Positions 23,312-29,665 of a DNA stretch of 64,000 nt are shown in pieces (position 1 is the stretch's first letter; each line of letters starts with the position of its first letter). A program made the translations under genes and the position numbers. The notes beneath the pieces were generated by a model that had not been told where the DNA came from, ran no database searches, and worked only from the letters and a program-made list of their open reading frames with translations. Origin of the DNA: Dehalococcoidia bacterium (GTDB taxonomy: Bacteria; Chloroflexota; Dehalococcoidia; Lucifugimonadales; Lucifugimonadaceae); NCBI GenBank assembly GCA_022824185.1, contig JAJEAU010000004.1:1-64000 (forward strand). Reading direction: 5' to 3'.

Positions 23312-24526
23312 TTATCCTGCAGTGACGATGCCACGCACTACTCGGAAATTCTGAGCATTGCGAAGTCTTTGGCGGCCCACTAAGGCGTCGTCGGTGACTG
23401 TTAGGAGGGTTTGTTCGTATTGGGCGGCTCGGTCGAGGATGGTGGATCGGCGCCGGGCGTCCATTTCGGATAAGACGTCGTCGAAGGCGATGATGGGGTC
23501 GCGCTTGGTGAATTCTGAGACAAGAGACGCTTCCGCGAGGCGTAGCGAAAGGGCTGCGGTTCTTGCTTGACCTCGAGATGCGTACCGACGGGAGGGGGCG
23601 TTGGCGATGTCGATGCGGAAATCGTCGAGATGGGGTCCTATGACCATGTGATTGGATGCCTGTTCCTTGCGTTTCGAAGCCATCAGGGATTCGTAGATGT
23701 GATTGCGGAGGTCTGAATCGGAGAGTGAGCTGGCTTCGGCGGATCGAGCGGCAGAACCAAGGTTTGGCGAGTACGTGAGGGATAGAGTTTCCCCCTCGCT
23801 GAGTTCGGAATGGACCGGAGAGGCTCTCGATTGGAGGAGTTGCATGACCTCGCGGCGAGTTTGGATGATCTTGACGCTTTCTTCGCAAAAGCGAGAGTCC
23901 CAGAAGGCGATCTCCTCCTCGAAGTCTTGGACTTCGAAGCTGCCACGCAGCAATGCGTTGCGGCTGGATCGAACTCTGTTGAGGCGGAGAAGCGTTTGAA
24001 CGTATTCGTGATCGAACTGTCCGATGAGGATGTCGAGGTAGCGGCGTCTGACGTTTGCGGCGCCTAGAGCCAGTTGCAGGTCAGCCGCTTCGAATACGAC
24101 GACGTTCGCGCGGCCGACGAACTGTATCGGACGGACTTTGACGCCATTGATCCGCCATTCTTTAGATTGGACCTGCAAACGACTGAAGTTGTCCGTCGTG
24201 CTAGGCGAAATGTTGAGATCGAATTGAGCGCGTACCGATTCGGGCCCGTTGTTGAACACGCCGAGAGCCTGTACGTGCCCGCCGTCTCGGGCGATGGTGT
24301 GATTGACGATCTCGCGGTCGTTGCTAGCTCGAAGGGATTTTCCTACCGAGAGCATGTGTATAGCTTCGAGGAGTCCACTCTTGCCGTGTCCGTTCGCGCC
24401 GGTAAAGACGACTAGGCCCGGCGATAAATTGATGTCGGTGTCGACGTGATTGCGGAAACCGCTGAGTTTTATGCGTGTCAGGTGTATGTTGGGCCTCGGA
24501 AAAACCTGGAATGTGTGTATGTGCAA
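23312..24526 (-). CDS. recF: DNA replication and repair protein RecF
   Basis: An SMC-like ATPase that helps load RecA at single-strand gaps. 404 residues, slightly long for the family because of an N-terminal extension before the usual start (LTRIKLSGFRNH at about 16). Walker A is TGANGHGKSGLLEAI near 41, the ABC-type signature region is in RYASRGQARTAALSLRLAE, and Walker B is IIAFDDVLSEMD near 355. recF usually sits with dnaA and dnaN at the origin; here neither is present. It is divergent from the DUF3179 gene. Confidence 0.92.
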   Translation of the reverse strand: MHIHTFQVFPRPNIHLTRIKLSGFRNHVDTDINLSPGLVVFTGANGHGKSGLLEAIHMLSVGKSLRASNDREIVNHTIARDGGHVQALGVFNNGPESVRAQFDLNISPSTTDNFSRLQVQSKEWRINGVKVRPIQFVGRANVVVFEAADLQLALGAANVRRRYLDILIGQFDHEYVQTLLRLNRVRSSRNALLRGSFEVQDFEEEIAFWDSRFCEESVKIIQTRREVMQLLQSRASPVHSELSEGETLSLTYSPNLGSAARSAEASSLSDSDLRNHIYESLMASKRKEQASNHMVIGPHLDDFRIDIANAPSRRYASRGQARTAALSLRLAEASLVSEFTKRDPIIAFDDVLSEMDARRRSTILDRAAQYEQTLLTVTDDALVGRQRLRNAQNFRVVRGIVTAG

Positions 24527-24529
24527 ACC

Positions 24530-24557
24530 TTGGTAAGGGTGTAATGCGTATCATAAT
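24530..24557 (+). promoter_or_regulatory. Candidate promoter for the DUF3179 selenoprotein gene
   Basis: TTGGTA (24530-24535), a 16-nt spacer, then CATAAT (24552-24557). It lies in the divergent gap between recF and the DUF3179 gene, about 85 nt before ATG 24644. Match to consensus is moderate. Confidence 0.4.
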
Positions 24558-24643
24558 CACAGCGGCGACAAAGAGTTGTCGATCTGTGAGGAGATGGCGA
24601 GACGCGCCGGGCGCGGCTGCCGGAAACACCAAGAATTCACGCC

Positions 24644-25831
24644 ATGCGCATAGGTTTGACAATCGCCGTTGTTGGGATGACGATATTACTTGCCGTTGCT
24701 TGTGGAAGTGATGAAGATGCGGTTCCGACGGCGGAAATGGCGGTTGAGCCGACGGCGACTAGTGCGCCTCCCCCACAGGAGACTCCCACGATTGCGGAGG
24801 CGACTGAGGCTCCCGCGCCTACCGAAGCTCCGCCTCCAACCGAGGAGCCGGCCGCGGAGATGGCGCCTGAGCGTGACTTGGATATCGTGACGCTCTTGCC
24901 GTTTGATGGAATTCAGTCGATCAACCGCCCCAACTTCTTCCCTGACCTCGAGAAAGCCAATATGTTTTACAAGGACCACGAGTTGGTCCTTGGCGTCGAG
25001 ATCGATGGCGATGCTAGAGCGTATTCGGTTCCATTGCTTAGCAGCCATGAGATTGTCAATGACGTCGTGGGAGGAAAACCGATCGCGGTCACGTGGTGAC
25101 CGCTTTGCTTCACTGGGATCGGGTATTCCAGAGTTGTCAATGGGGAAGAGCTAACGTTCGGTGTCTCTGGAAAGCTGACGATGAACGCGTTGATCATGTA
25201 CGACCACCAGACGCGGTCGTTGTGGAGCCATTTTCTTTCGGAAGGTATCGAAGGTGAGTTCAAGGGCGTGAAGTTGGAGAATGTGCCTCTGGTGTTGACG
25301 AACTGGGGCGATTGGAAGACGAGGTTCCCCGAAACTAAGGCGCTGTTGAAGGGAGAGTCGAGCGTCGATCCATACACGACGTATTACATGCGCGGGGATG
25401 CCGGCGTGATCGGGGAGACTAACCGCGATGATCGGTTGTATGGCAAGGAGCTGGTGTTGGGCGTCGGTTTCGATGATGGTGCCGTGGCGTATCCGCATGT
25501 TGCGTTGCAAGAGGAAGAGGTGGTGAATGCGGAGGTCAATGGTGAGCCCGTGGTGATCTACTACGATTCGCAGACGACGACTGCGTTGGCGTTTTCGAGG
25601 GTAGTCGATGGGGAGGTCCTGGAATTTTCGTTGTCGGTTGAGGACGAGGTGGACGGCGTAGCCAAGCGATGGTTGGTGGACGATGCAACGGGAAGTGAAT
25701 GGCTGCCGTTGAATGGACAGGCGTGGAGCGGGGAGTACCAGGGGACGCGACTCGAGCCGGAGCACGCGGTGAATGTGTTCTGGTTTGCTTGGAGCGACTT
25801 TTATCCAGATACAGAGATTTACGGGCAGTAG
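24644..25831 (+). CDS. DUF3179 lipoprotein with in-frame UGA read as selenocysteine
   Basis: One continuous frame of 395 codons is interrupted only by TGA at 25097-25099 (codon 152). Before it: a lipoprotein signal (lipobox AVAC), a Pro/Ala/Thr linker to about residue 85, then the start of the DUF3179 domain (ELVLGVEIDGDARAYSVPLL, HEIVNDVVGGKPIAVTW). After it, in the same frame: PLCFTGIGYSRVVNGEELTF, FGVSGKLTMNALIMYDHQT and SLWSH, all DUF3179 hallmarks. Family members have Cys-Pro-Leu-Cys where this protein has U-P-L-C. The UxxC pair suggests a redox site on the outside of the membrane. A SECIS-like hairpin follows and selD is nearby. A nonsense mutation or sequencing error is the alternative. 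The domain function is not known. Confidence 0.82.
25097..25131 (+). promoter_or_regulatory. UGA (Sec) codon and SECIS-like hairpin in the DUF3179 gene
   Basis: After UGA 25097-25099, CTGGGAT (25113-25119) pairs with ATTCCAG (25125-25131), 7 bp including one G-U, around the loop CGGGU (25120-25124). The apical loop begins 20 nt after the UGA and has G at its second position. This meets the published rules for bacterial SECIS elements: 16-37 nt spacing, a short loop, and G among its first two bases. SelB would bind this loop. Confidence 0.7.
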
Positions 25832-25833
25832 CG

Positions 25834-26364
25834 ATGGATCTGAAGGCTTGGGTGCGGGAGGTGCCGGACCATCCGATATCCGGAATCTTGTTCAAGGACG
25901 TGACGTCGGTGATCGGTCATCCTCCTGCTTTTCGGGCTGCGGTGGATTGGTACACAAACCAAGTCGAGAGGGTGAACCCGGAGATTTTGGCTGCGATAGA
26001 TGCTAGGGGATTCGTTTTTGCGGCTCCTGTTGCGGATCGATTGGGCATACCGATGGTGCTTTTGCGTAAGACGGGGAAATTGCCGCCCCCGGTGGTGCAG
26101 GTGGAGTACTCACTGGAGTATGCCGACGCCTCGAATTTGGAGGCTCGAATCGGTGCAGTCGATGCCGGACAACGGGTGGCGGTTATCGATGATCTGCTTG
26201 CTACCGGTGGCACAGCGGTCGCCGCGTCAAAGTTGGTTGAGGAACTAGGCGGAACCGTGGTGGCACATGTTTTTCTGATCGAGTTGGCGTATCTGAACGG
26301 GCGCGCGCGAGTTTTGGATCATGATGCCAAATGCGAGGTTTTGGCGAATGTCGTCTACGACTGA
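25834..26364 (+). CDS. apt: Adenine phosphoribosyltransferase
   Basis: It salvages adenine: adenine plus PRPP gives AMP. 176 residues from ATG 25834, normal for Apt. The frame is open upstream but that part overlaps the DUF3179 gene. Family signs: HPISGILFKDVT near residue 13, the AIDARGFVFAAPVA loop, the LLRKTGKLPPP segment that contacts the base, and the PRPP motif VAVIDDLLATGGTA near 115. Only 2 nt separate it from the DUF3179 stop, so the two genes are probably co-transcribed and apt translation may depend on full read-through of the UGA upstream. Confidence 0.93.
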   Translation: MDLKAWVREVPDHPISGILFKDVTSVIGHPPAFRAAVDWYTNQVERVNPEILAAIDARGFVFAAPVADRLGIPMVLLRKTGKLPPPVVQVEYSLEYADASNLEARIGAVDAGQRVAVIDDLLATGGTAVAASKLVEELGGTVVAHVFLIELAYLNGRARVLDHDAKCEVLANVVYD

Positions 26365-27851: not shown

Positions 27852-28619
27852 TTGAAAGATCAGATTCAAGACGAAAGTGGCGCGTGTTGTGCGTACCAGT
27901 ATTTCGTCGATACTGTGAGAACGCTTCGGGATCCGGGCGGGTGCCCGTGGGATGCGGAGCAGACGCATCAATCTTTGCGCATCAACTTGTTGGAGGAGGC
28001 GTACGAATCCCTTGAGGCGTTGGATAGCGGAGACTCAGGCGCGTTGGAGGAGGAACTGGGTGATCTATTGATCCAGATTGTTTTTCACGCTGACATCGCG
28101 CGACGGGAAGGGAACTTCGATGCGGATACGCTGTGCATGAAGGTCGCCGAGAAACTGATTAGACGCCACCCGCATGTTTACGGTGATGCAGAGGCGTTGG
28201 CGTCAGGAGAGGAGGTCGTTGATCGTTGGGAGCAGATCAAACGAGAGGAGGCTGGTGGGGTCAGATCGTTAGTCGAATCGATTCCAAAGGCGATGCCGGC
28301 GTTGGCACAATCTGCGATATTGCAACGGCGGGCGATCAGGGCAGGATTAGATGTTGGCCCACCTACTGACGAAACTGGCGGTTTTCAGCGCCGCGGTGAA
28401 CAGGAGACCGACGACGATGTCGAACGACGGGCAGGGGAATATTTGGCAGCAGTTGTGAGATCGGTTCAAGAGCAGGGCGTCGACCCGGAGACAGCTCTGT
28501 TGAAGGTCAGTTCAGAACTGCGGGAGCGCGTGTTGAGGGCAGAGGGATTGGCCGACGGAACAGCGCTGGCGGAAATGAATGCTGATGAAAGAACTCGGAT
28601 CTGGGAACAAGCGCGCTAG
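27852..28619 (+). CDS. mazG: Nucleoside triphosphate pyrophosphohydrolase MazG
   Basis: It hydrolyses (d)NTPs to NMP and pyrophosphate, cleaning the nucleotide pool. 255 residues from TTG 27852. The all-alpha MazG core is clear: CPWDAEQTHQSLRINLLEEAYE near 30, with ExxE, then EELGDLLIQIVFHADIA (E-x3-D metal site) near 70, and KLIRRHPHVYGD near 105. A second, weaker MazG half follows. The stop overlaps the selD stop by 4 nt on the opposite strand. Start position uncertain: GAGG lies only 1 nt before the TTG. Confidence 0.88.
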   Translation: MKDQIQDESGACCAYQYFVDTVRTLRDPGGCPWDAEQTHQSLRINLLEEAYESLEALDSGDSGALEEELGDLLIQIVFHADIARREGNFDADTLCMKVAEKLIRRHPHVYGDAEALASGEEVVDRWEQIKREEAGGVRSLVESIPKAMPALAQSAILQRRAIRAGLDVGPPTDETGGFQRRGEQETDDDVERRAGEYLAAVVRSVQEQGVDPETALLKVSSELRERVLRAEGLADGTALAEMNADERTRIWEQAR

Positions 28620-29665
28620 GGGTCGATTTGGACTGCATAGTCGTCGCGTCCCGTTACCTCGCCGATGATCGTGCCAGTTATGCCTCGACGTTCGAGATCT
28701 GAGATTAGCGCGTCGGTCTTGTCTTCAGGCAATGAAATCAGCAGGCCGCCTGAAGTTTGAGGGTCGCACATCAATAGCCGATCGATTTCGGTGATGGAGT
28801 TGTGCCATGCAACGCTGTCCGCACATGATTCGATGTTGCGGGTAGTGCCCCCGGGTGCAATGCCGTCGTTGAGGAGGTGTAAAACGCCCGGGAGCACAGA
28901 GAGCGCGGAACGTCGGATCTTAGCAGTAGTTCCGCTACCCTTCATCATCGTCATGAGGTGGCCGACAAGGCCGAATCCCGTGACATCTGTTGCGGCGTTT
29001 GCGCCTACTGAGATCATTGCTTCCGCCGCGTCTCGGTTCAGCTTGAGCATCGAGTTGACGGCAACTTCCAAAACGTCGTCTACGGCTTTTCCGTTTTTGA
29101 GGGCAGTGGTGACGACTCCGGTGCCTAGTGGTTTGGTGAGAACCAAGACATCACCCGGGTTGGCGGTTGAGTTCTGGATCTGTTTGCCTGGCTCGACGGT
29201 TCCGACAACCGAAAGACCGTACTTCGGTTCGGTGTCGTCGACGGTGTGGCCACCGACGATGATGGCCCCCGCTTCGGCGACCTTGGATGCGCCGCCCTTC
29301 AGAATCTCCGCGAGGATTTCGGGTGGCAAAGAACGCGGAAAGGCGACGATGTTGAGAGCCGTGATTGGTTGACCGCCAACAGCGTACACATCGGACATAG
29401 CGTTCGCCGCCGCGATGGCTCCGTAAGTGAATGGGTCGTCAACGATGGGAGCAAAGAAGTCGACGGTGAGGACCAAGGCGGCGCGTTCGTTTAACCGGTA
29501 AACAGCGGCGTCGTCACCGGTTTCGAAGCCGACCAGAAGGTTGGGGTTTGGCGCGGCTCCATCAATCAGCCCGCCCAAGACCTGGGCGAGTTCGCCTTGG
29601 CTCAGCTTACCTGCTCAACCAGCGCAGCTGGCGAGTTCGGTTAGCCGTGGAACTTTTTCGCTCAT
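28616..29665 (-). CDS. selD: Selenophosphate synthetase containing selenocysteine (Sec17)
   Basis: It makes selenophosphate, the selenium donor for Sec-tRNA, from selenide and ATP. The frame runs from ATG 29665 through TGA 29617-29615 to 28616, 349 residues. Translation at the start is MSEKVPRLTELASCAG-U-AGK. U is residue 17, the exact place of catalytic Cys17 in E. coli SelD, and Lys20 is kept. Downstream family motifs: NPNLLVGFETGDDAAVY, ITALNIVAFP, GGHTVDDTEPKYGLSV, DVTGFGLVGHL and CDPQTSGGLL. If the UGA were a stop, the gene would appear to start at TTG 29578, missing the catalytic residues. Sec in SelD is known from other bacteria. No selA, selB or selC is in the window. Confidence 0.93.
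29582..29617 (-). promoter_or_regulatory. UGA (Sec) codon and candidate SECIS hairpin in selD
   Basis: On the mRNA strand, UGA at 29617-29615 is followed by CTG...CAG outer arms (29605-29603 with 29584-29582) and a GGCG-AACT-CGCC inner hairpin (29596-29585). If the last pair opens, the loop GAACUC starts with G, 21 nt after UGA, within the bacterial SECIS spacing. The stem is short, so this is weaker than the element in the DUF3179 gene. Confidence 0.5.

Follow-up and report, generated by a model that had tools for sequence, protein, structure and literature searches.

The DUF3179 (PF11376) gene at positions 24644-25831 is almost certainly a working selenoprotein gene whose single internal UGA is read as selenocysteine. 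We favor this reading because the genome encodes the selenocysteine (Sec) machinery, the UGA occupies a column in which homologues carry either Sec or cysteine, the SECIS hairpin that follows it covaries, the protein part downstream is under purifying selection, and the UGA is kept across species. The gene was found in a 64,000-nt stretch of contig JAJEAU010000004.1 from a Dehalococcoidia bacterium (GCA_022824185.1), referred to here as the window.

An open frame interrupted by one UGA

The main features of the gene and its predicted product are as follows.

24644-25831, forward strand: putative selenoprotein gene of the DUF3179 family (PF11376); 395 codons and a TAG stop, interrupted by one UGA
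24644-24703, forward strand: predicted signal peptide with a lipobox-like LLAVAC and a lipid-anchor Cys at codon 20, recognized by eye in the translation
25097-25099, forward strand: UGA, candidate Sec152 codon of a U-P-L-C motif
25106-25108, forward strand: partner Cys155 of UPLC, Cys in 38 of 40 aligned members

The coding part (24644-25828) is closed by a TAG at 25829-25831, and its translation of 395 residues agrees with a preliminary description of the region in that the frame is broken solely by the UGA at codon 152 (context TWUPLCFTGIGY). DUF3179 sequence had also been described on both sides of the UGA, and a single PF11376 match of 270 bits (gathering cut-off 27) indeed runs through it, covering positions 2-292 of the 292-position model. 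Taken separately, the fragments 5' and 3' of the UGA match model positions 2-64 and 66-292; since these parts of the model adjoin, only the UGA separates the two sides. No NCBIfam model matched the protein, and nothing was found with Rfam within the 64-kb window. A linker rich in Pro, Glu and Thr, also read from the translation by eye, follows the signal peptide, and the N-terminus suggests that the product is exported and lipid-anchored. Sec152 and Cys155 form the sole Sec/Cys pair of the mature domain, which contains no further cysteine.

Selenocysteine machinery and the genetic code

Profile searches of the same genome located selA on contig C3 (520 bits) and selB on contig C4 (319 bits), and a tRNA-Sec gene was found on contig C21 (69 bits, called SeC, anticodon tca (UCA)). 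Together with the selD gene in the window, selA, selB, selC and selD are thus all present, including the three for which the preliminary description had proposed a search.

28616-29665, reverse strand: selD (TIGR00476, 386 bits), with its own UGA at codon 17 (29615-29617, CAGU)

That selD itself carries a UGA had been noted correctly; the accompanying distance of 4.5 kb is that from UGA to UGA, and the two genes are 2.8 kb apart. UGA is the most frequent true stop in the window, ending 18 of 39 long open reading frames. As had been argued, a changed genetic code is therefore excluded. Across the class, selA scored above the cut-off in 18 of 21 genomes with UGA-containing family members; one of the others has a selA fragment and two have none, one of which (G137) has selB. 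This co-occurrence is only mildly informative for the Sec reading, since most genomes of the class (125 of 197) carry selA above the cut-off. When the window was scanned for more frames of this type, no further UxxC or CxxU candidate emerged under an overlap filter so strict that even the two known cases were hidden.

The UGA column in homologues and paralogues

Alignment of homologues places the UGA at the first Cys of the family's CPLC motif, as first proposed. Among the collected loci, 63 distinct homologues have UGA at the codon-152 column and 42 have TGC or TGT, although the UGA members were fetched on purpose and these proportions are no survey. Orthologues with the identical UGA position share 67-84% identity with the protein, and UGA is also found in this column in relatives down to 30-40% identity. 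Because independent orthologues carry the same UGA, a read error at this TGA is very unlikely. In every UGA form except one, which reads UPLR (L085), a Cys completes the pair; the two middle residues vary (PL, TL, IL, IR, IK, PI, PV, VA or IV). A class-wide search found the family in 76 genomes, with an internal TGA in 33 of the matches listed, from 21 genomes.

Two other DUF3179 genes of the source genome each have one UGA, again at the codon-152 column (WUTLC on contig C6 and WUPLC on contig C2), and the genome's three Sec-encoding paralogues fall in three clades. In a fourth DUF3179 gene of the genome, Ser stands at the Sec column and Thr at the second Cys. On a tree of 105 proteins six Sec/Cys changes were counted, at least four of which are forced by starred branches. 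A natural Sec/Cys pair within one genome was also seen: at L063:1-2070 two adjacent DUF3179 genes that lie close together on the tree encode CPLC and UPLC.

A covarying hairpin follows the UGA

25113-25131, forward strand: candidate bSECIS hairpin, supported by covariation, with a 7-bp stem CUGGGAU/AUUCCAG and loop CGGGU

Bacterial SECIS elements are expected to have a loop of 3-9 nt with a G in its first two positions, a stem of 4-16 bp, a distance of 16-37 nt from UGA to loop, and a folding energy of -7.5 kcal/mol or lower (PMC13188914). The hairpin, with stem arms at 25113-25119 and 25125-25131 and its loop at 25120-25124, fits these rules at 7 bp, CGGGU and 20 nt; whether it passes the energy limit depends on the stretch folded. 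The preliminary description had the stem length, the loop and the agreement with SECIS limits right, but what begins 20 nt after the UGA is the loop, the stem beginning at 13 nt. RNA folding, which had been put forward as a check, gave a divided answer: the limit is passed on longer stretches (-7.9 kcal/mol on +6 to +40 and -13.2 on 49 nt) and missed on +10 to +36 (-6.8), and the energy of the single sequence is unremarkable against shuffled controls (z -0.68, with 50 of 200 shuffles equally good).

It is comparison between genomes, rather than the energy of a single sequence, that marks the hairpin as more than a chance structure. Among 29 UGA orthologues, 99% of cells are paired and 25 cells are changed on both sides, giving a covariation score of 0.322 as compared with 0.072 for shuffled and at most 0.063 for slid controls; counts from related sequences overstate independence, although the slid controls and the Cys set are equally related. 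The orthologues interchange stems such as CUGGAAU/AUUCCAG, CGGGCAU/AUGCCCG and CGGCCAU/AUGGCCG. UGA members form 5.7 of the 7 pairs, whereas Cys members form 2.7; median hairpin energies are -11.3 and -5.4, respectively, and the median fraction of synonymous recodings that fold equally well is 0.015 in UGA members and 0.29 in Cys members. In more distant UGA clades the hairpin is shifted and equally strong. From these comparisons we conclude that the hairpin is selected as RNA. Located directly after the UGA, it would recruit SelB with Sec-tRNA(UCA), and selenocysteine would be inserted at codon 152.

The Cys found in this column in homologues could alternatively suggest that the UGA is recoded or suppressed to give Cys, or Trp, instead of Sec. 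We regard such decoding as extremely improbable given the tRNA-Sec, selA, selB and selD genes, the normal use of UGA as a stop elsewhere, and a bSECIS-type hairpin that is kept in UGA members and not conserved in Cys members.

Purifying selection downstream of the UGA

Comparison with the closest orthologue (L054, 84% identity) gave dN 0.062 and dS 0.883 for the part downstream of the UGA, and dN 0.070 and dS 0.968 for the upstream part. Within the 11 codons after the UGA only one or two differ in any of eight orthologues, and synonymous sites elsewhere are near saturation. These measures show purifying selection on the protein part downstream of the UGA, with dN/dS about 0.07. Such constraint bears directly on the alternative that translation ends at the UGA, as a normal stop or through a pseudogene mutation, and leaves the downstream part unmade. 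No other stop codon is as frequent as UGA in this genome region, and the hairpin taken alone is not extreme, but the UGA is common to orthologues, to relatives down to 30-40% identity and to two paralogues, the hairpin covaries, and the low dN/dS extends beyond the UGA; termination at this codon therefore has a negligible probability, and translation through it as Sec remains our reading.

The order recF (reverse), DUF3179 (forward), apt (forward), spanning 23312-26364 in the window, is kept in four relatives (L054-L057), down to 67% identity.

25834-26364, forward strand: apt (adenine phosphoribosyltransferase), conserved beside the gene

The apt gene is probably only a neighbor, and the gene neighborhood (recF, apt and RidA-like genes) gave no functional clue.

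A tandem repeat with a predicted Rieske-like fold

24917-25363, forward strand: N-terminal repeat containing UPLC, predicted Rieske-like fold (AlphaFold2 pLDDT 95.7, best Z 8.2)
25439-25828, forward strand: C-terminal repeat lacking Cys and Sec, predicted Rieske-like fold (best Z 9.1)

The N and C halves of the protein form an internal tandem repeat (hhalign E 1.5e-37), and an AlphaFold2 model built on a 40-sequence alignment reached a pLDDT of 94.2. Compared with the PDB, the C half matched Rieske ferredoxins at Z 9.1, with all or nearly all of the top 50 rows being Rieske proteins; for the N half modeled alone, all 50 listed rows were Rieske domains, with about 92 of 103 residues covered. 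Foldseek E-values of the Rieske matches are weak (0.03-0.2). The C half scored 24.0 against a Rieske profile, above a maximum of 19.0 for permuted controls, and the N half did not exceed its permuted controls. No relative was found in the PDB by sequence, whether the protein or its profile served as the query, and PF00355 gave no Pfam match even at E 10. On balance we consider it quite likely that both repeats adopt a Rieske-like fold.

The Rieske cluster ligands, CxH ... CxxH, are not conserved in the aligned members, and the profile alignment and fold ranges place UPLC in the turn that precedes Rieske motif I, and D-x-x-T-G-S-x-W at motif II. No Rieske cluster is therefore expected. If the protein nevertheless held a true Rieske [2Fe-2S] cluster, with Sec serving as an unusual ligand, the match of the fold to Rieske ferredoxins would be accounted for, as would the spacing of 17 residues between His135 and Sec152, which equals the distance between the CxH histidine and the CPxH cysteine. 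Weighed against the lack of a conserved first Rieske Cys, the frequent Arg in place of His135 and the placement of UPLC and D-x-x-T-G-S-x-W, this assignment is highly unlikely, and a fold without the cluster is preferred.

The position of His135, 17 residues upstream, had also suggested UPLC as the second Rieske motif (CPLH). This candidate was rejected: the profile alignment and fold ranges point to a different register, and His135 is often Arg.

A probable redox pair outside the cell

The lipid-anchored product would expose two Rieske-like domains without cluster ligands, with Sec152 and Cys155 in the first repeat most likely forming a selenenylsulphide/selenol-thiol redox pair that acts on an extracytoplasmic substrate. 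We infer a redox pair from the UxxC arrangement, the repeated Sec/Cys exchange and the joint loss of both residues in Ser/Thr paralogues; in the 40-member alignment, residue 155 is Thr in both members in which Ser replaces the Sec/Cys. Overall, an extracytoplasmic selenol/thiol redox role is probable.

The main rival on function is a metal site, in which the Sec/Cys pair would bind a metal such as copper or mercury together with Met185 and His135, without thiol redox chemistry. Of the 40 aligned members, 37 have Met185 and 31 have His135, and metals are handled by several of the selenoprotein families listed in PMC13188914, but His135 is replaced by Arg in the other 9 of the 40, and frequent Sec/Cys exchange typically marks redox or nucleophilic sites. 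Metal binding accordingly has perhaps one chance in a few, and the redox pair is the preferred function.

In two paralogues, L003 (G000:C21:62908-63861) and L117, which share a long branch, the Sec/Cys pair is replaced by Ser-Pro-x-Thr; these proteins are possibly non-catalytic.

Relation to known selenoproteins

The preliminary description had presented the protein as a likely new selenoprotein, with no Sec-containing DUF3179 protein known to it; as a claim to a new selenoprotein family this has to be withdrawn. A 2022 table already lists DUF3179 (PF11376, UxxC/T, representative MBW1804167.1) as a predicted selenoprotein (PMC9312934); the table cites Zhang and Gladyshev (2007, NAR), a study on the Olavius algarvensis symbiont. 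Table 1 of a 2026 paper again lists DUF3179, PF11376, UxxC/T as a predicted selenoprotein, with representative MDJ0986319.1 (PMC13188914). The gene call was thus right and the novelty claim wrong. Both entries agree with the present gene in PF11376 and UxxC but come without fold, function or further detail, whereas we describe Chloroflexota members (SAR202/Dehalococcoidia-type), several Sec paralogues, SECIS covariation and a predicted fold. No function or fold for DUF3179 was found in the literature within reach of our search and, as far as could be searched, a Rieske-like fold, a tandem repeat, measured SECIS covariation and the presence of several Sec paralogues in one Chloroflexota genome have not been described.

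The predicted fold of each DUF3179 repeat resembles that of Rieske ferredoxins and ISP domains (PF00355; 2qpz, 3gce), from which DUF3179 differs in lacking CxH/CxxH ligands, in being a tandem repeat and in having UxxC in one repeat only. Tentatively, and with the odds slightly against so specific a picture, DUF3179 may be a family of tandem Rieske-fold proteins that lack the cluster and carry a Sec/Cys pair away from its former site. Such proteins would represent a novel kind of extracytoplasmic selenoenzyme, which in SAR202-type Chloroflexota would have expanded to several Sec paralogues in each genome. Several of the thioredoxin-like, DsbA/DsbG-like and CYCXC-family selenoproteins with UxxC are extracytoplasmic; these families have a thioredoxin fold or are small proteins, unlike the Rieske-like tandem repeat. 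The UxxC pair itself is shared between them and DUF3179 (PMC13188914, Table 1).

Within the literature searched, the family was previously only a table entry, and the present gene adds to it a well-supported example whose SECIS covariation has been measured. In uncultured Chloroflexota, Sec copies of DUF3179 number three, four or more per genome, and the Rieske-like fold predicted here, in which UxxC lies away from the cluster site, offers a first concrete handle on the function of an uncharacterized family.

Other family members

One paralogue (L091, G190:C1:2387000-2388900) has two in-frame UGAs, the extra one lying eight codons upstream of the Sec column (VGULPVLVSWUPIC). Bacterium HR10 and Bacterium HR08 (L083 and L084) each have two DUF3179 genes with a UGA (UPLC and UPVC), on contigs unassigned to Chloroflexota. 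A search of the phylum also recovered a short DUF3179 paralogue with a 345-codon frame and one TGA in six genomes of a family outside the class (f84; for example at G205:C10:279281); its match is split like that of the source genome's own copy at C2:5554.
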